Positions 46,896 through 54,245 of a stretch of 64,000 nucleotides of DNA are shown piece by piece. The DNA is from Hydrogenobacter thermophilus TK-6 (lineage in GTDB: Bacteria > Aquificota > Aquificia > Aquificales > Aquificaceae): assembly GCF_000010785.1 (NCBI RefSeq), contig NC_013799.1, positions 1,612,001 to 1,676,000 on the forward strand, read 5' to 3'. Under the pieces are notes generated by a model. That model ran no database searches, was not told the DNA's origin, and saw nothing but the letters and a program-made list of their open reading frames with translations. Numbering within the stretch: the stretch's first letter is position 1; every line of letters starts with the position of its first letter. The position numbers were made by a program, and so were the translations under genes.

Positions 46896-47393
46896 TTATA
46901 CCAGTCTGATGACCCAAGCATTATAAAGTAAATTAGAGTAAAGATGCACAAGGCTTACAAAAATCAAGGAATCAGTTTTCTTATAAAGAAAGCCAAAAAG
47001 CAAAGAGGGAAAGAAAGTAAGAAGGGATACAAAGTTTTGGTATATCAAAAAGTGGGGCAATGCAAACATGGCAGAGACTGTTATATTTCCATACCTGCGC
47101 ATAAGGTATGCTCTGAAAAAAACCTCTTCCGCAAGTGCAGAAAGGAAAGCATTAAGCAGCGTTTTTATGTCAAACCCCAGAAGGAGGCAAATGGGAAAGG
47201 TAAGTATAAAAAGATTCCACGGATTTTTCCATCTGAAGATGTTTTCTAAAAAAACAAGTGGTGAAAGAAGCACTACAATAGAGAAGTCAGGAAAGTCCAA
47301 AAGCCTGTGGGATAAAAGAGTTGCTATAAGCACAAAGTAAAGAAGCATCTCAGAGTATCTTTTTGTAAACGATCCTATCACCTTGCCTGTCAT
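46896..47393 (-). CDS. CPBP-family intramembrane metalloprotease (CAAX-protease-like)
   Basis: This membrane protein of about 165 residues has the CPBP motifs AEEVFFRAYL (EExxxR), a second His in FALPHFLIY and VHLYSN near the end. Several hydrophobic helices separate them. Family members are glutamate-dependent membrane proteases or have related roles. I start at an ATG behind GAGGT; this overlaps the gspK-like gene by 44 bases. A downstream ATG at 47348 would avoid the overlap. It is the last protein gene of the secretion operon, so action on a pilin-like or secreted substrate is possible but unproven. Confidence 0.72.
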   Translation of the reverse strand: MTGKVIGSFTKRYSEMLLYFVLIATLLSHRLLDFPDFSIVVLLSPLVFLENIFRWKNPWNLFILTFPICLLLGFDIKTLLNAFLSALAEEVFFRAYLMRRYGNITVSAMFALPHFLIYQNFVSLLTFFPSLLFGFLYKKTDSLIFVSLVHLYSNLLYNAWVIRLV

Positions 47394-48204
47394 ATATAAC
47401 CTCAAAGGTAGAAGTGTATCCCCCGGACCTTAGGTCCATAACTATGTGAAAGTAGTTGCTTTTTACATCCACAAGGTTTTTTATGGCGTAGAGTATGTCA
47501 AAGGTAAAGCCATCCACCAGAAGGAGGTCTTCTACTTTTTTGAAGGGTTCTCTGTTTCTTCTTTCTATTATCTTGCTTGCCAGCGCCTGGTCTATTCTTG
47601 GGTCAAGAGCCATAAGTATGTAAGAGTTGGCAGTGTTTATGTTTATCTTCCCTGAGGAATAAACGGTGGTGAGACTCAAAAGTCCGGGGTAAAATTCATT
47701 TCCTATGGTTTTACCAAGAAGGTCCTCACTTTTAAAGCCTGCCCACCTTATCTCTTCCTTTGAGTCCAGAGGTCCTCTCTTTATGGGATAGTCAGTATCT
47801 ATGTGAGCATTGCTTTTGCCTTCCCACGCAAGAAGGTTATCTTTGTAAGAGGGGTCTATGTTAAGTAGTCTCAAAAGCCTCTCAAAAAACTTTCCATAAG
47901 CTCCGCTGTCCACATAGTTTAGGTTGAGAAATCTCTCCTCGTCGTATATGTTTATGCTCAGCTCTCCCTTCTGAGTTTTGAAACTAAGGGGATACGCCCA
48001 TCTATCTTGCAAACTGTCAACGGAAGGGTCATCTCTTTTGAGACTATCAATAACCACGGGAAGAGCTGACATAAAAATCTGATAAGCTTGCTCTTTGAAG
48101 TAAAATTGCTCTACTGTAAGGTCTGCCTGCCTTACGCTGCTATATGTGTCCAGCACATAATAAACGGAAGAGATAAAAAGCAGAAGAACTAAAAGCACTA
48201 TCAT
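47350..48204 (-). CDS. gspK: GspK-like minor pseudopilin
   Basis: This 284-residue protein has an N-terminal hydrophobic stalk (MIVLLVLLLFISSVYYVLDTY) but no obvious prepilin-peptidase Gly-Phe site in the visible start. The large exported domain includes GspK features: NLNYVDSGAYGKFFERLLRL and helix-hairpin-helix-like motifs (KININTANSYILMALDPRID; FKKVEDLLLVDGFTFDIL). GspK caps the pseudopilus tip in type II secretion. It overlaps the gspM-like gene by four bases. Confidence 0.82.
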   Translation of the reverse strand: MIVLLVLLLFISSVYYVLDTYSSVRQADLTVEQFYFKEQAYQIFMSALPVVIDSLKRDDPSVDSLQDRWAYPLSFKTQKGELSINIYDEERFLNLNYVDSGAYGKFFERLLRLLNIDPSYKDNLLAWEGKSNAHIDTDYPIKRGPLDSKEEIRWAGFKSEDLLGKTIGNEFYPGLLSLTTVYSSGKININTANSYILMALDPRIDQALASKIIERRNREPFKKVEDLLLVDGFTFDILYAIKNLVDVKSNYFHIVMDLRSGGYTSTFEVIYDRQGDRIVYKKIL

Positions 48205-48605
48205 CTTATGAGCATCTCAACATCAAATAAGCCTTGACCTGTGTTGTCAACAGCTTTGAATTTTACTATCTTTATACCACGCTCCTCAAGGGTATAAACC
48301 ATCTGGGGAATTTTTGCTCCCGGCAGTTTTCTGCCTTTGACCTCGTATCCCACATCCGTCTGTCTTAAAGAGAGCAGTTCCCCACCTGCACTGGATAATA
48401 CGCTTCTTAAAAGATCCTCCGAGGGCTCCTCTCTCTTTCTATCCCTGTAGTTCTTCATCAAAAGCATAACCTCTTTGTACCTAAGGTAATCTCTGTAATA
48501 GGCTTCTCTGAGCTGATAGTATCTGTTTAAAAGTATATAGACCATAAGAAAGGTAAGGAGCAATGACAAGCCCATAAGATTTTTCTTGGTGAGCATTTGT
48601 CTCAT
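48201..48605 (-). CDS. gspM: GspM-like secretion/pilus assembly protein
   Basis: This 134-residue bitopic membrane protein has a short basic N-terminus, one helix (LMGLSLLLTFLMVYILLN), a coiled segment and a small periplasmic ferredoxin-like domain (GGELLSLRQTDVGYEV, MVYTLEERGIKIVKF). This matches GspM/PilO topology. Assignment rests mainly on topology and its place between gspL and gspK. It overlaps both by four bases. Confidence 0.72.
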   Translation of the reverse strand: MRQMLTKKNLMGLSLLLTFLMVYILLNRYYQLREAYYRDYLRYKEVMLLMKNYRDRKREEPSEDLLRSVLSSAGGELLSLRQTDVGYEVKGRKLPGAKIPQMVYTLEERGIKIVKFKAVDNTGQGLFDVEMLIR

Positions 48606-49756
48606 TTTATCTCCAGTTCAAACTCTACGCTTCCCGTAGGTGTCTTTTTTACCTTCTGAGGTTTCATAAGGCTTACCACTTCCTCTTTCCCCTCCCCCTT
48701 TATCCTCAAACTACCTTCTGCAAACTCTATGGAGTATATCTTTACGCCTTGCTTTACCCTTTTTGTGAGTTCTGACAGTTTTTTGGTAAGCTCATAAGGT
48801 TCGCCAGTTGATACCTTTGACTTTACCTGATCATACAGAGAGACTATAGGCTCGTTGGGAAAAGTCTTTTTGAACTCTTCCCTTTCTACACTCTCCATCT
48901 TTTGGGAAGACCAGAGAAAGCCCAAAAGCAGGTAAGAGGCAAAAAATAGCGACATGCTTGTAGCTGCTAAAATGGCGCTAACTTTTAACTCTTTGTCAGT
49001 CAGCTCTCTTTTGACAAAGTCAGGATATGGATTTTTTACAATGAACTTAAGACTTGCGCCAAAGGCTGAGGTAAGCTCAGGCTCACAAAAGTGGTGGCTT
49101 TCCGCCCTTGGAAGAAGGTCTTTCAAGCCTTTTGTTTTAGAACCACCTCCGCTAAGGATCAGAGGTTCACTCTCCGCACTTAGCCCCACAGAAGAAAGTA
49201 TATGCTTTATACCCTGCAATACTTCTTCCAGTTCCAAACCTTTTTCTATTTTCCATCTTTCAGCATGCTCTTTGGTTATTCCTCTTTTTTGAGAGACCAC
49301 ATCTGTAAGATAGTCCCCGCCTTTTAAAATTACTCGGTAGCTCTTTAAAAGCCCCTCCTCACACTTCACCAGCGTGGTCTTTCTCCTGCCCATGTCCAGA
49401 AGGTAGCCATCCTGATAGCCAAGCACTTGCAAAACTCTTGCCAGAGCAAAGACCTCCAGCTCTACATTAAAACAGTCTTGCGCTGCAAAGTTCCTGTATA
49501 CTCCTAGGAATACAAGGTCATTGTATAAAGACACATCCCAGTTTACCCTGCCGTATCTTTCCTCCACATCAAGGGTGTAGAAGCTTTTAATCTCGCTTAT
49601 CTTCTTTGAAAAAGCCTGCTCAACTTTCACCAGACACAAGTCAGATGGAATTACGCATATTTTTTTGCCAAGCTTTTTGGTAGCTCTCCAGTCCTTCTTT
49701 AAAAAGGGCTTTTCAACGCTGAAGACTTTTTCTCCATCAACGCCTGTGTATATCAT
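48602..49756 (-). CDS. gspL: GspL-like actin-fold assembly protein
   Basis: This 384-residue protein combines a cytoplasmic actin-like domain (about 1-235; DMGRRKTTLVKCEEG and LILSGGGSKTKGLKDLLP are its phosphate-type loops) with one membrane helix (SAILAATSMSLFFASYLLLG, about 257-276) and a periplasmic part. This is the PilM-PilN fusion layout of GspL. GspL ties the GspE ATPase to the inner-membrane platform. Overlaps of four bases with gspE and gspM indicate one coupled operon. Confidence 0.82.
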   Translation of the reverse strand: MIYTGVDGEKVFSVEKPFLKKDWRATKKLGKKICVIPSDLCLVKVEQAFSKKISEIKSFYTLDVEERYGRVNWDVSLYNDLVFLGVYRNFAAQDCFNVELEVFALARVLQVLGYQDGYLLDMGRRKTTLVKCEEGLLKSYRVILKGGDYLTDVVSQKRGITKEHAERWKIEKGLELEEVLQGIKHILSSVGLSAESEPLILSGGGSKTKGLKDLLPRAESHHFCEPELTSAFGASLKFIVKNPYPDFVKRELTDKELKVSAILAATSMSLFFASYLLLGFLWSSQKMESVEREEFKKTFPNEPIVSLYDQVKSKVSTGEPYELTKKLSELTKRVKQGVKIYSIEFAEGSLRIKGEGKEEVVSLMKPQKVKKTPTGSVEFELEIK

Positions 49757-51165
49757 TCTTCTACCTTAACCGCTCTTATGAGTTCCTCAGGTGTTGTTAT
49801 TCCCATTATAACTTTCTCAAGCCCATCCTCGTACATACTTCTAAAACCCTTTTCTTTGGCTTTCTTCCTTATATCGTTGGCATCCTGAGTTTTTAGGATT
49901 AGCTGTTTTAACTCTTCGTCAAGCTCCAACACCTCGTATATGCCCATCCTTCCCCTGTAGCCTGTACCCATACACATCTCACAGCCCCTTCCTCTGTAAA
50001 AGGTGTAATCTCCATCAAGTCCCAGCTGATGGAGTTCCTCCTTCGTAGGTTTGTAGGGTTCTTTACAGTACTCGCACACCTTTCTTACAAGTCTTTGAGC
50101 CAGCACGCCCTCCAGAGAGGAAGCTATTAAAAATGGCTCAATGCCGAGGTCTGAAAGTCTTGTGATGGCGGAAGGAGCGTCGTTGGTGTGAAGAGTTGAA
50201 AGAACCAAGTGACCTGTCAGAGCTGCGTGGACTGCTATTTGAGCTGTTTCGCCATCTCTTATCTCCCCCACCATTATCACATCTGGGTCCTGTCTGAGGA
50301 TGGCTCTCAGTCCGCTGGCAAAGGTGAGTCCTACCTTTGGATTTACCTGTATTTGACTCACACCTTTTACTTGATACTCGGGCGGGTCTTCTATGGTTAT
50401 TATGTTTTTGTGCGGACTCTTTATGTGTAAAATCATGGCATAAAGTGTAGTACTTTTGCCTGCTCCGGTGGGTCCAGTTGCCAGCACTATACCGTATGGC
50501 TTTTGAGCGAGTCTCTTGACTTTTTCTAGGTCTTCCTCCGAAAGCCCAAGTTCCTGCAGAGTAAGCATAGTGCCAGACTTGTCAAGGAGTCTCAGCACCA
50601 CCCTTTCTCCAAAAGTTGTAGGCACTATGGAAACTCTTATGTCCAAGTCCCTTTTACCTATCCTCACTCTTATCTTTCCATCTTGAGGCACCCTTCTCTC
50701 CGCCACATTGAGGTTTGCCAGAACCTTTATGCGCGAGACAACAGACTCGTGAAGGGAAAGAGGCAGGCTTACATAGTCGTGAAGCACACCATCAAGGCGA
50801 AGTCTCACCAGAGAGCCATCCTCGTAAGGCTCTATGTGTATGTCGGAAGCGGATAAAGTGGTTGCCTTTATAAGCGTGGAGTTTACAAAGCTCACCGCCG
50901 GACTTTTTTCTTCCTCCAGGAGTATGTCCCTTTTGGAGTCCTCCTCTTCTTTTAGCTCCTCCACATAAACTTCTTCCTGAGCCAGCCTGTTTTGAAGCTC
51001 CTTTGAAAACTCCTCCCCATCCACTTCAAGAGCTTCTACACTTTTTCCTGTTAAGAACCTTATCTCCTCTATTACTAAAGGGTCGTATCCTCTGGGAACT
51101 AAGAGCTTTATGTAATCTTCACCTTCCTCCACAGGCACAAGCCTGTAGGTTTTTAGTATGTCCAT
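49753..51165 (-). CDS. gspE: GspE/PilB-type secretion ATPase
   Basis: This hexameric ATPase of 470 residues powers pseudopilus or pilus assembly. Walker A is GPTGAGKS (231-238). The Asp box, Walker B (DVIMVGEIRD, 295-304) and His box (TGHLVLSTLHTNDAPSAITR) are all intact. A four-cysteine zinc motif (CEYC, then CEMC) is near residues 366-395. The N-terminal domain is short compared with PilB. It starts four bases after the heme-sensor gene. The secretin, platform protein and major pseudopilin are not in the window. Confidence 0.93.
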   Translation of the reverse strand: MDILKTYRLVPVEEGEDYIKLLVPRGYDPLVIEEIRFLTGKSVEALEVDGEEFSKELQNRLAQEEVYVEELKEEEDSKRDILLEEEKSPAVSFVNSTLIKATTLSASDIHIEPYEDGSLVRLRLDGVLHDYVSLPLSLHESVVSRIKVLANLNVAERRVPQDGKIRVRIGKRDLDIRVSIVPTTFGERVVLRLLDKSGTMLTLQELGLSEEDLEKVKRLAQKPYGIVLATGPTGAGKSTTLYAMILHIKSPHKNIITIEDPPEYQVKGVSQIQVNPKVGLTFASGLRAILRQDPDVIMVGEIRDGETAQIAVHAALTGHLVLSTLHTNDAPSAITRLSDLGIEPFLIASSLEGVLAQRLVRKVCEYCKEPYKPTKEELHQLGLDGDYTFYRGRGCEMCMGTGYRGRMGIYEVLELDEELKQLILKTQDANDIRKKAKEKGFRSMYEDGLEKVIMGITTPEELIRAVKVEE

Positions 51166-51169
51166 GGGA

Positions 51170-52066
51170 TTATTTTAACAGGTCCATAACCTTCTTTATG
51201 CTGACTCTCATTCTTTCAAAAGCCTCCGCCAGCTTCCCAATCTCGTCGTCGGATGTGATGTCTACAGGCTCATCCACATTGCCTTTGGCTATCTCTTCTG
51301 CCTTTCTTTCAAGCCTCTCTATGGGTTTGAACACCAGCCTGTCAAGGGAGATAAGGATAAAAAGCGTCAGCAGTAAAAATATGCCAAAAATGGAAAGTCC
51401 TCTGTAAAGACCTGTCAGCTGGGCTTTTAGCACCGTGGATTCAAAGGGGACAAAGACCATGACTGCTCCCTGAACCTTACCTACCTCCCAGTTTAGGTCT
51501 CTCTGGGGTTTGTAAAGAGCCTGTATAACCTTGGGCATGTTCTGAACCTGACCGTGGCATCTCAGACAGCTACCGTCAGGCACCACTGCGGAGGCATAAA
51601 CAAAGTACCTCTCCCCTCTGTAGTTTACTATGTCTGAGTATTCCCTGTGTGTTGAATTTCTCATGAAATTTATCACCCCCGCTTCCAGCTCGTTGGGTTC
51701 GTCCTTTGGGTTTAGGGGATTGAAAGCCACCTGCCTGAGGCTAAAGTTGGGAAGCTCCTCGCTAACTTTTTTGAAGATGGACGCAGTAAAAAAGCTGGAA
51801 GACTGCCCCTCAAGTATAAAGTCCTCCTTAGAGCAACCGCTTGCCAAAAGCTCATCAATCTTTGGTCTTAAAGTGCTTCTCACGTACTCCCTTGAAGCTT
51901 TGGTAAAGGTCATGGCGGTTTTTATCTTCTCCTTTGTGGTCTCTTTGGCAGTTTCTATGGTGTTTTGATAGGAGTAAAAGCCTACTACTAAACCTAACAC
52001 TGTCCCCAGAAGTATCACAGGTAGTCCCACCTTCCACCTTATGCTTTTGGGCAAAGGTAACCTCAT
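51170..52066 (-). CDS. membrane sensor with CxxCH heme motif (DUF3365-like) and HAMP domain
   Basis: This 298-residue protein has two membrane helices (about 13-32 and 224-242) that bracket a periplasmic domain resembling DUF3365/Tll0287-type sensors. The domain holds a c-type heme site, Cys167-Leu-Arg-Cys170-His171. A HAMP linker (about 243-296; FKPIERLERKAEEIAKGNVD, DEIGKLAEAFERMR) ends the protein. There is no kinase, cyclase or chemoreceptor output. The signal must pass to a separate partner, most simply the co-operonic proteins. It overlaps the 385-residue gene by four bases. Confidence 0.8.
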   Translation of the reverse strand: MRLPLPKSIRWKVGLPVILLGTVLGLVVGFYSYQNTIETAKETTKEKIKTAMTFTKASREYVRSTLRPKIDELLASGCSKEDFILEGQSSSFFTASIFKKVSEELPNFSLRQVAFNPLNPKDEPNELEAGVINFMRNSTHREYSDIVNYRGERYFVYASAVVPDGSCLRCHGQVQNMPKVIQALYKPQRDLNWEVGKVQGAVMVFVPFESTVLKAQLTGLYRGLSIFGIFLLLTLFILISLDRLVFKPIERLERKAEEIAKGNVDEPVDITSDDEIGKLAEAFERMRVSIKKVMDLLK

Positions 52067-53220
52067 GTTAACAACCTCCTCGCTTTTTCTAAAAATTTAC
52101 TGGCATGTGCGCTATCTGGGATCTCCATGTAAAGCTCCTCTATCAATCTTTTGAGATCCTCCTCTCGCATCTGTCTTTCTGAATATCCCTTTTCCTTCAG
52201 TATTTTACTCCACAGCAGTGCTCCTATTGGTCCTATCTCCTCTATAAAGTAAGATCTTATCAATCTTACCTTTTCTTCTTCTACATAAGTACTTTCAGAG
52301 GGGGAAGGCTCTTGAGTGTAAAACTCAACTTCCATGGCTGGAAAGGTCTCTCTTACTTGAAGGCTGTATAAGAAAAAGGTATTTTTAGTGCCTGGGCTTA
52401 TTTCAAGGCTCCGATTTTCTATCTGGTCCATCATGTGAGCAAGTCTCAAAAGGAAAGTGCCTTTGTAAAAAAATTCGTACATCCTACCTCCTTTTTGGAG
52501 ATGCACATCAAGAATAGCACTGAGTTTCCTATCACTTACCTCCTTCCTGACTATACCCAGCTCCTCATTACTCCTAAAGGTGTCCTCTATTTCTTTCTTT
52601 AGGGTATTCATAGAAGACAAAAACAATGGTAATTCTGGCTCTGTGGCATAAACTGCTATGCAATCGCCATCCTTATCAATACTGATCCTTTGGCGTGTGC
52701 CTATGGTATAAGTGTTATCGTGGTAAGAGCATATGGCAAGTCCCTTCTGGAACATGATCATGTGCGTAAACCCTCTTCTGCTGCAAAGCACCAAATAGCC
52801 ATCTAAGTGGGACCGTTTTACCTGCTCCATAAGTCCGCTGATATTAACATGAGAAAACTTCATGCAGGTGAGAAACTCGTGTCCATAAGACACAAAGTTG
52901 TAAGGACACGGTGGGGTCCTCTGCTGGTCTCTGAAAGTGATTAAATTAATAAGGGACACCTCATAAAAAGAGACAGTCCCAGCATTACTTTTTGGCTTGT
53001 AATTTTCTACATCTAAATTATTTATACTTCCATCTCTATCTATGCTTACACCCCATATGGGTTGGCCTTCCGCATACAGTATGTAGTCATCCAGATTCCA
53101 GTAAGATATCTTGAAATATCCTGTGAGCTTCTTTGTAATAACCTCCTCAAAGAGTTTTCTTAAGTCCACCGCCTCCAAACTGAGTTCTTTATAGAGCGCT
53201 ACTCTTTCCATGTTTGGCAA
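52063..53220 (-). CDS. 385-residue protein with duplicated PATAN/DUF4388-like motif
   Basis: No family can be named with certainty. Two similar blocks are visible. Residues 31-58 read KLTGYFKIS, then ILYAEGQPIWGV. Residues 138-165 read HLDGYLVLC, then IMFQKGLAICSY. Each has Gly-Tyr, a strand, then a turn with Gly and a hydrophobic strand, as in the PATAN (DUF4388) domains that often accompany bacterial small GTPases. The C-terminal half is helical and charged with no motif. The start overlaps the GTPase gene by 32 bases; an ATG at 53211 is an alternative. It lies between the GTPase and sensor genes. Confidence 0.65.
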   Translation of the reverse strand: MPNMERVALYKELSLEAVDLRKLFEEVITKKLTGYFKISYWNLDDYILYAEGQPIWGVSIDRDGSINNLDVENYKPKSNAGTVSFYEVSLINLITFRDQQRTPPCPYNFVSYGHEFLTCMKFSHVNISGLMEQVKRSHLDGYLVLCSRRGFTHMIMFQKGLAICSYHDNTYTIGTRQRISIDKDGDCIAVYATEPELPLFLSSMNTLKKEIEDTFRSNEELGIVRKEVSDRKLSAILDVHLQKGGRMYEFFYKGTFLLRLAHMMDQIENRSLEISPGTKNTFFLYSLQVRETFPAMEVEFYTQEPSPSESTYVEEEKVRLIRSYFIEEIGPIGALLWSKILKEKGYSERQMREEDLKRLIEELYMEIPDSAHASKFLEKARRLLT

Positions 53221-53758
53221 CCAGTATGTTTTTTATTATCTTTACAAAGGTTTCTAAAACACCCTTGCCTTCTATAGCCACAGATTCTACATAGTCGGTA
53301 TCCCATGGATTGAACATCATCTGCATGTCATCAATGGGCATAGCGCTGGGAAGATCCCTCTTATTGTACTGCACCACCACAGGGAAATGTAGGAGGTCAT
53401 GCCCTTGCTCCTTTAGGACCGCTGCAGTTTCTCTCATCACAAGAAAGTTAACCTCTTTTCTTTCTACACTGCTATCCACTACAAAGACTAATCCATCAAC
53501 ACCCTTTACTATAACCTTTCTGAGAGGATGAAGCCTGAACTGACCGGGTGTTGTCATGATCTTTACATCCATCTCCACGCCCTCTATGTTGAGGCTGCTA
53601 ACAAACATTTCTACAAAGAGGGTTCTCTGCTCGTCGGTTTCCATGCTGACAAATTCCCCCTTCGCCAGTCCTCTTTCCTTTAGTATCTCGTAGAGCTTCT
53701 TCACATTGGTGCTTTTACCTGCAAGGCTTGAGCCAAAGTAAACCACCTTGAGCTTCAT
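53189..53758 (-). CDS. MglA-like small Ras-type GTPase
   Basis: This 189-residue GTPase has P-loop GSSLAGKS (9-16), the switch/G3 region TTPGQF (69-74) and G4 NKRD (132-135). The contexts KVVYFGSSLAGKSTN, TDEQRTLF and KGVDGLVFVVDSSVER closely track MglA, the polarity switch of Myxococcus and Thermus. MglA cycles with its roadblock partner MglB, which acts as its GAP. Such a partner is encoded one base upstream. The operon continues into secretion/pilus genes, suggesting control of pilus assembly or placement. Confidence 0.9.
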   Translation of the reverse strand: MKLKVVYFGSSLAGKSTNVKKLYEILKERGLAKGEFVSMETDEQRTLFVEMFVSSLNIEGVEMDVKIMTTPGQFRLHPLRKVIVKGVDGLVFVVDSSVERKEVNFLVMRETAAVLKEQGHDLLHFPVVVQYNKRDLPSAMPIDDMQMMFNPWDTDYVESVAIEGKGVLETFVKIIKNILVAKHGKSSAL

Positions 53759-53759
53759 C

Positions 53760-54245
53760 TCATAGGCCTACCAGCTTACTTAACTTCTCTTCAAGACTTT
53801 TTACATCCACCTTTACCGTTTTAACTGGTACGAGTTTTACACTGGAGAATATCTCTTCAAGCTCTTGAGAAGCATCTCTCAAAAAGAGCCTTACGCTTCC
53901 CAAGGCTACGCCTTTATCCACCATTATACCTATGAGGAATCTTGGTTTTATTGCCTTTATTACCACATCAACCTTTTTGCCCTCAAACTGCAAAATGTCC
54001 AGCTCTTCTACAGATAGCATCTTTGACATTTCAGCTGCCGCACCAAACATTCCACTGATTAAGCTTGCTATAAATTCCGCTCTGTCTTCGTCTATCCTTT
54101 TGCCCTTTAAGCTTATGATCCTACCTGCATCATCAGCAAGAATGACAAGCTCCGCAGATGTTTTAGAAAAAAGATTTTTAAGCACCTCATCCAGCTTAGC
54201 CTTTGTATCCTGGTCAAGCTCATACTCTACAAGGTCAAGCTCCAT
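53760..54245 (-). CDS. roadblock/LC7-domain protein (MglB-like)
   Basis: This 161-residue protein has a roadblock/LC7 fold (SAELVILADDAGRIISLKG, ASLISGMFGAAAEMSKML, KPRFLIGIMVDKGVALGSVR). A charged C-terminal helix (VKVDVKSLEEKLSKLVGL) follows. Roadblock proteins act as GAPs or scaffolds for MglA-type GTPases. The gene precedes the GTPase by one base. A TATATT box (54269-54264) and an AAGGGGGG site lie upstream. glyA ends 33 bases before it, so it may have its own promoter or follow glyA. Confidence 0.87.
   Translation of the reverse strand: MELDLVEYELDQDTKAKLDEVLKNLFSKTSAELVILADDAGRIISLKGKRIDEDRAEFIASLISGMFGAAAEMSKMLSVEELDILQFEGKKVDVVIKAIKPRFLIGIMVDKGVALGSVRLFLRDASQELEEIFSSVKLVPVKTVKVDVKSLEEKLSKLVGL

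Follow-up and report, generated by a model that had tools for sequence, protein, structure and literature searches.

A heme-Cache receptor ending after HAMP in Hydrogenobacter thermophilus probably signals in trans through a STAC-like domain encoded by the overlapping gene

The window considered here is a stretch of 64,000 nt from Hydrogenobacter thermophilus TK-6, and coordinates given without a locus name are positions within it. A compact gene cluster on its minus strand reads, in order of transcription, roadblock/LC7 protein, small GTPase, a 385-aa ORF, a membrane receptor, a T2SSE/PilB ATPase and further pilus/secretion genes. The roadblock protein (161 aa, 53760..54245) is MglB-like (Pfam Robl_LC7, E 5e-10; the NCBIfam MglB model matched with E 2.8e-10, under its cut-off) and lies adjacent to an MglA-like small GTPase of the Ras/Arf type (189 aa, 53189..53758; Pfam Ras, E 1.7e-8, and Arf, 2.1e-7), the two representing an MglA/MglB-type pair. 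The PilB/GspE ATPase (49753..51165, Pfam T2SSE) is encoded directly downstream of the receptor, and PilB/PilM-like and T2SSK genes are found in the stretch 47350-51165. Five T2SSE matches exceed the cut-off in this genome, which is the only one with PilB directly behind the receptor among the regions fetched around homologues.

The receptor gene (51170..52066, minus strand, ATG start) encodes 298 aa. Residues 39-207 (51446..51952) constitute a periplasmic Tll0287-like or sCache_heme domain (Pfam PF11845, E 5.5e-33, 114.9 bits against a cut-off of 24.1), and residues 243-291 (51194..51340) a HAMP domain (Pfam PF00672, E 1.2e-13). From the sequence and the long helices of the AF2 model we read two predicted membrane helices. 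The best PDB match of this model (mean pLDDT 85.7) is Tll0287 itself (5b82, Z 14.6 over 148 residues, rmsd 2.8). The original prediction had described a receptor of 298 residues that stops right after HAMP and carries an intact CxxCH in its periplasmic domain. Both points hold: seven residues follow the Pfam HAMP before the stop, leaving HAMP as the sole cytosolic part, and the heme c attachment motif (residues 167-171, 51554..51568), with C167, C170 and H171, is invariant in 29/29 receptors of our alignment, 21 of which are Aquificaceae rows.

A frameshift or sequencing error in front of a kinase domain, the check named along with the original prediction, can be dismissed, because the T2SSE/PilB ORF begins 4 bases downstream on the same strand and the frames of the 28 relatives in the alignment also end just past HAMP; the stop is genuine. 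The aligned Aquificaceae receptors terminate at one common column, e.g. with FERMRVSIKKVMDLLK followed by the stop. Three HAMP residues (R285, R287 and S289) are invariant across the 29 sequences, and the last 25 residues, comprising the AS2 helix and the C-terminal tail with the motif [ED]R[MLIF]RxS (residues 274-298, 51173..51247), are in the Aquificaceae the best-conserved segment of the receptor. The mean majority fraction in the 21 Aquificaceae rows is 0.87 for this segment, compared with 0.67 in the heme domain and 0.55-0.56 in the membrane helices. A tail so strictly kept, with nothing behind it, would most simply be a contact surface, and we propose that it serves for docking of a STAC domain.

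Such a domain is encoded immediately upstream. The 385-aa ORF (52063..53220) overlaps the receptor gene by 4 nt (ATGA, 52063..52066, partner stop and receptor start) and probably starts three codons later, at the ATG at 53211, where most homologues start. According to its AF2 model (mean pLDDT 92.2), the partner protein consists of three alpha/beta repeats followed by four C-terminal helices. Repeat 1 (residues 7-100, 52921..53202, taken from the model) is weakly DUF4388-like; repeats 2 (residues 114-207, 52600..52881) and 3 (residues 208-300, 52321..52599) were delimited by AF2 and hhalign. The latter yielded 95.5% for repeats 1 and 2, 66% for 1 and 3 and 3% for 2 and 3, and 4-8% for each repeat against DUF4388 (PF14332), all at one segment (repeat 1: 8%). 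The 385-aa protein belonged to no family in Pfam (DUF4388 included), NCBIfam or PADLOC. A fold search with the model, in which the STAC part was barely covered, gave no convincing match: the top Foldseek rows had TM values near 0.1, and the best VIA match was acetolactate decarboxylase (Z 7.4 over 79 residues). The C-terminal four-helix domain (residues 315-384, 52069..52278, delimited by AF2 and a PDB profile search) is the best-conserved part of the partner (0.53 versus 0.37-0.46 elsewhere).

A profile of 52 such C-terminal domains was searched against 177,635 PDB sequences. The top match was Af1502 of Archaeoglobus fulgidus (5a1q, E 7.2e-5; runner-up 0.041). Its two hairpins make up a four-helix bundle carrying an LGPx(x)A motif, a domain named STAC, and the protein is monomeric on its own (PMC4834066, in part). 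The predicted helices of the partner span residues 315-329, 333-344, 353-366 and 370-384, with a linker of 8 residues where about nine would be expected for STAC. The LGPx(x)A position reads IGPIGA; across the 52 rows, G is invariant and P nearly so, L and A being variable. Among the Pfam matches listed (25 of 37 families), no family had more than two matches to the 52 segments, the best with E 0.0023. The sequence evidence shows homology of the partner's C-terminal domain to Af1502/STAC. In a separate search of PDB sequences, the receptor profile found Af1503 as its best HAMP match (9.9e-13), with weaker matches to a HAMP-chemoreceptor fusion (9.8e-8), to sensory rhodopsin transducer/chemoreceptor entries (from 1.9e-7) and to NarQ (about 0.01). 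Af1503, the source of the first HAMP structure (PMC3570549, in part), shows a run similar to the tail motif in the printed alignment. Excerpts of PMC4834066 describe Af1503-like archaeal receptors as HAMP-terminated, without a recognizable effector and often coupled to proteins of 60-90 residues such as Af1502; Af1503 and Af1502 are translationally coupled.

What STAC does is called unclear or unknown in the consulted parts of PMC13022988 and PMC5715377; growth showed no obvious difference once STAC had been deleted from either CbrA or CrbS (PMC5715377, same parts). In the cryo-EM structure of CbrA, STAC docks beneath the transporter and is proposed to relay transporter motions (PMC13022988, in part), a picture in keeping with a STAC that reads how membrane domains move. 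The STAC-like domains described here are not tied to SLC5 transporter or two-component modules; they are linked to HAMP receptors, DUF4388, roadblock-like proteins and Ser/Thr kinases.

Among 136 Aquificota genomes, Tll0287 was matched in 81, the 385-aa protein in 61 and its C-terminal domain in 80. Two of our family labels were assigned by inference: f1 would be the Aquificaceae, f2 the Hydrogenothermaceae. The usual gene order in the fetched Aquificaceae regions is roadblock, GTPase, 385-like protein and receptor, and in most of them the gene immediately preceding that of the receptor encodes the partner homologue. Some Aquificaceae genomes hold a second pair, in which the receptor is a dCache_3-HAMP protein without output, and some contain an additional set that includes two bare HAMP proteins. 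In the Hydrogenothermaceae, a bare HAMP protein with two TM helices (about 130 aa) accompanies a STAC domain on a roadblock-like protein (hhalign 91.8%), and the cluster continues with roadblock, DUF4388 protein and GTPase. In a further family (f5) the receptor/STAC pair stands alone, no GTPase or roadblock gene being detected next door. The f5 partner combines DUF4388 (Pfam E 1.6e-13 and 2.6e-14 in the two tested) with the same C-terminal domain, and its gene overlaps that of a heme receptor of 323-330 aa in 12/13 regions, the two being apart in genome G127. In a phmmer run, an f5 partner matched only designed TIM barrels (best E 1.7e-7), over about 30 residues, and these were judged unrelated. 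Sensor (sCache_heme, dCache_3 or none) and effector (DUF4388 or roadblock-like) vary, then, and the HAMP end and STAC are constant.

Two sets of loci deserve separate mention. Output-less receptors of 371 aa (L079 11730-12845, L081 11186-12301, L082 6375-7490 and L173 7209-8324; dCache_3-HAMP by Pfam in L079, the others alike) each adjoin a STAC protein of their own, and their terminal tail is nearly that of the heme receptor. In L159-L164 and L166-L169, one STAC protein (222-231 aa) occurs with two different bare 2TM-HAMP proteins (about 125-143 aa), which suggests a HAMP heterodimer.

There were 101 STAC matches. In 87 of these, the immediate neighbour is an output-less HAMP gene in the same orientation; 7 others lie at contig ends and could not be scored, 6 lack such a neighbour, and one (L170, a secretin-like ORF of 596 aa, E 1.3e-4) was judged a chance match, so that adjacency among resolvable STAC loci is 87/93, the window counted in. 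For the first 77 loci besides the window, a script scored 67 as adjacent, 3 at contig ends and 7 as non-adjacent; the gap between STAC and HAMP genes in the 67 has a median of -4 and a maximum of 39 nt, with 40 overlapping. One locus that the script scored non-adjacent (L164) has two bare HAMP ORFs, the nearer of which overlaps the STAC gene by 4 nt. The remaining 22 loci comprise 18 adjacent ones, with the HAMP frame broken to 63 aa in L310 and the STAC gene cut by the contig end in L298, L299, L304 and L314, and 4 unresolved at contig ends (L294, L297, L301 and L305). The six non-adjacent cases are split pairs in G057 and G127, a receptor match with an internal stop near a contig end in G114 (L156), and the loci of G022 (L165), G072 (L138) and G122 (L157). 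In L165 (5484-6620) the STAC loop has GQ instead of GP and the genome lacks a Tll0287 match; decay of this STAC protein after receptor loss is possible. When loci fetched for the C-terminal domain alone (61) were tallied, 49/54 resolvable ones were adjacent. For the converse, 74/79 output-less HAMP proteins of the first set lie no more than two genes from a STAC domain, a count that is not independent since each region had been picked for one of the two partners; the five misses are one contig end, two split pairs, G067 and G068. Output-less heme receptors without an adjoining STAC gene were seen in L088 (2651-3526), L089 (1383-2252) and L254 (3836-4744). A search for HAMP-STAC fusions returned 0 ORFs. 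Output in trans via the overlapping 385-residue protein, as the original prediction had proposed, is well supported by the STAC homology of its C-terminal domain and by this phylum-wide gene pairing.

The ligand of the receptor may be NO or a redox signal, both being candidates. NO dissociates slowly (koff 6.25e-4 per s) from an sCache_heme protein with HAMP of Pseudomonas azotoformans, in which the axial Cys is missing; this Cys is present in a stand-alone, redox-like sCache_heme protein of P. putida (PMC12889525, in part). Cys78 of the window receptor (51833-51835), found in 20/21 Aquificaceae receptors and in 0/8 other aligned receptors, is a candidate distal heme ligand and could give Cys/His ligation. 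The redox-like behaviour of stand-alone sCache_heme domains and the retention of Cys78 would also suit a HAMP-ended protein acting mainly as heme electron carrier or membrane anchor, in which case the pairing with the 385-residue protein would reflect co-expression and not signalling. We regard this as improbable. dCache_3-HAMP and bare 2TM-HAMP proteins occupy the same place beside STAC, no heme being required, and since the output-less neighbours of STAC can be heme-free, heme is not what the partner needs.

Another reading starts from the other HAMP proteins with long frames in this genome: the receptor could be a decoy or tuning subunit that forms mixed dimers, or competes, with an output-bearing HAMP receptor (kinase or chemoreceptor) encoded elsewhere. 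The genetic tie between output-less HAMPs and STAC genes makes this very unlikely, as does the tail motif. Thirteen genomes were searched for HAMP, and 12 of them gave 37 matches in all. Among the 29 matches that fall in fetched loci and could be aligned, [ED]R[MLIF]RxS occurs in 9/9 output-less and 0/20 output-bearing ones (19 proteins), a count in which output-less HAMPs may be favoured by the alignment model, which was built from them. Across the larger Aquificota set, 72/79 tails conform strictly and 78/79 loosely.

The pairing extends beyond the Aquificota. Searching 72,556 plasmids, we obtained matches in 8 records with the window receptor and in 10 with a proteobacterial relative as query. 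The six nearly full-length proteobacterial matches (three Caballeronia, Paraburkholderia, Rhodovulum and Skermanella) all show one arrangement, an output-less receptor with a gene for a Ser/Thr kinase behind it; type VI secretion genes were seen within the stretch in five of the six records, none being shown in Rhodovulum. Behind the kinase domain, each of the six kinases (Pfam was run on three) carries two GPxG/GPxA repeats. Aligned with the Aquificota STAC domains by hhalign, the 12 repeats scored 97.1% (P 5.1e-11), as opposed to 0.3-0.9% for the controls HAMP, roadblock and DUF4388 and 0.8% for the best of 40 column shuffles. HMMER alone was borderline on the kinase tails (5/6 at E 7.7e-10 to 1.8e-3, Paraburkholderia missed), and a kinase-tail profile searched against PDB sequences did not find Af1502 directly. 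When the Skermanella kinase tail was searched against all plasmids, it matched 5 records, all of them Ser/Thr kinases and 5/5 beside a receptor. We call the kinase repeats STAC-like because of the hhalign result with its controls and column shuffles, and because of this plasmid search. In phages, only the kinase part of the kinase was matched (among the matches listed, 5 of 54).

A seventh proteobacterial record, from Vibrio campbellii, matched over 34% only, with neither HAMP nor STAC shown. The cyanobacterial plasmid of Rippkaea is an exception to the pairing, as it encodes an output-less receptor with no STAC-bearing neighbour. The other two cyanobacterial records have the domain, in Kovacikia within a 524-aa ORF and in Sphaerospermopsis within one of about 907 aa. 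As for the surroundings of the receptor-kinase pair, TagF recurs beside it in L255, L257, L260 and L261, and genes for a FecR-domain protein and a PP2C phosphatase in L255 and L260.

These kinases also bear on the idea that HAMP acts directly on the GTPase or the roadblock protein, with the 385-residue protein as a mere scaffold. In most of the Aquificaceae regions, roadblock and GTPase genes do indeed cluster together. We nevertheless consider this idea very unlikely, given that the pair occurs with Ser/Thr kinases in Proteobacteria and that f5 has it with neither GTPase nor roadblock gene detected next door. Moreover, 56/72 loci with a called GTPase have neither STAC nor output-less HAMP, 13 have both and 3 have STAC alone, in a sample chosen by GTPase, in which some genomes are shared; it comprised the best 80 of 105 loci, less 8 in which no GTPase ORF was called. 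It appears more likely that the GTPase is reached through the 385-residue protein than directly by HAMP. That the DUF4388-like repeats would act on the GTPase is suggested by the gene neighbourhood and by the occurrence of PATAN genes near some MglA genes (PMC4316618, in part).

The Aquificaceae have a second GTPase cluster (roadblock, DUF4388, GTPase), in which an upstream protein of roughly 236-242 aa replaces HAMP and STAC (L200 8198-8926, L210 8222-8935, L221 8207-8917); this protein seemingly combines a coiled coil with two membrane helices. DUF4388-GTPase clusters that closely resemble the Aquificota ones were also seen in L198 and L199, on contigs titled as Gammaproteobacteria and Acidobacteria MAGs, which are possibly misnamed bins. 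Four loci of the bare-HAMP type (L160 4205-5614, L164 4553-5962, L167 5663-7072 and L168 795-2204) encode a close homologue of the window PilB (469 aa, E about 1e-218) beside the STAC gene, in the opposite orientation. Together with the PilB gene after the window receptor, this hints that the GTPase module may act on pili. PilB itself is a possible direct target.

We favour signalling of the output-less receptor in trans, from its HAMP domain to the STAC domain of the partner and on to the GTPase/roadblock module, and put the probability of this reading at roughly 0.78. Several observations count against it: output-less heme receptors that lack a STAC neighbour, STAC genes that lack a HAMP neighbour, the absence of an obvious growth effect when CbrA or CrbS loses STAC, the monomeric state of isolated Af1502, the failure of the kinase repeats to find Af1502 directly, and the lack of any HAMP-STAC fusion among the ORFs searched. 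The predicted periplasmic c-type heme Cache domain would sense a gas or redox signal, which the two membrane helices and a homodimeric HAMP would carry inward. There, the AS2 helix of HAMP would act, through its conserved end, on the C-terminal STAC-like four-helix domain of the overlapping gene's product, presumably by direct contact. STAC would then alter how active its fused effector is, or how this effector is recruited to the membrane, the effector in this case being three DUF4388-like repeats of a Ras-like GTPase/roadblock module of the MglA/MglB type. We further lean, with some reserve, towards HAMP-to-STAC signalling in trans as a general mode by which bacteria and archaea pass signals across the membrane, in addition to kinase, cyclase and chemoreceptor outputs fused to the receptor. 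Receptors with [ED]R[ML]RxS tails would dock on the STAC domains of interchangeable effectors, such as small-GTPase regulators, roadblock proteins and secretion-system Ser/Thr kinases.

Archaea were already known to couple a STAC protein with a receptor that ends in HAMP; what is added here is the heme receptor, the GTPase operon and the version with kinases. As in the window, the receptor of the Af1503-Af1502 pair ends after HAMP and its coupled neighbour is a STAC four-helix protein. In this archaeal system, however, STAC forms a protein of its own, 60-90 residues long and often encoded near transporter genes (PMC4834066, in part), whereas in the bacterial one it is fused to an effector (385 aa), the receptor has a heme motif and the neighbours are GTPase and roadblock genes. 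Target 2 of P. azotoformans shares the heme Cache, two TM helices and HAMP, no further domain being mentioned in the available part of PMC12889525. That study measured NO binding; the same part does not use the wording 'in trans' and has 'output' once, with reference to other architectures. The SLC5-STAC histidine kinases CbrA and CrbS likewise place STAC under a membrane input domain (PMC13022988, in part), but unlike the receptor and partner described here they are single chains with transporter input and histidine kinase output. Conservons (CvnA-D) resemble the window in that a single operon encodes a HAMP membrane sensor, a roadblock protein, a small GTPase and one further protein (PMC13343842 and PMC4316618, both in part). 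CvnA carries a histidine-kinase module, with no STAC reported in these parts, whereas Pfam finds no kinase domain in our receptor. MglA/MglB polarity modules have the Ras-like GTPase and roadblock protein in common with the window and are sometimes located near PATAN-domain genes; unlike here, no heme receptor or STAC is reported for them in the consulted part of PMC4316618. Full-text searches of PMC, which did not extend to the original STAC paper (Korycinski et al. 2015), brought up no account of STAC joined to DUF4388, a roadblock domain or a Ser/Thr kinase.

The present findings place STAC on proteins of recognizable function, beside HAMP-ended receptors in two bacterial phyla. Two old questions, namely the signal target of HAMP-ended receptors and the role of STAC, thereby become simple binding and mutant tests with proteins of a thermophile. 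A possible route emerges from periplasmic heme sensing (of NO or redox state) to Ras-like GTPases and, in Proteobacteria, to kinases encoded among type VI secretion genes. If the proposal is true, STAC would be a receptor-coupling domain that supplies the missing output of Af1503-type receptors.
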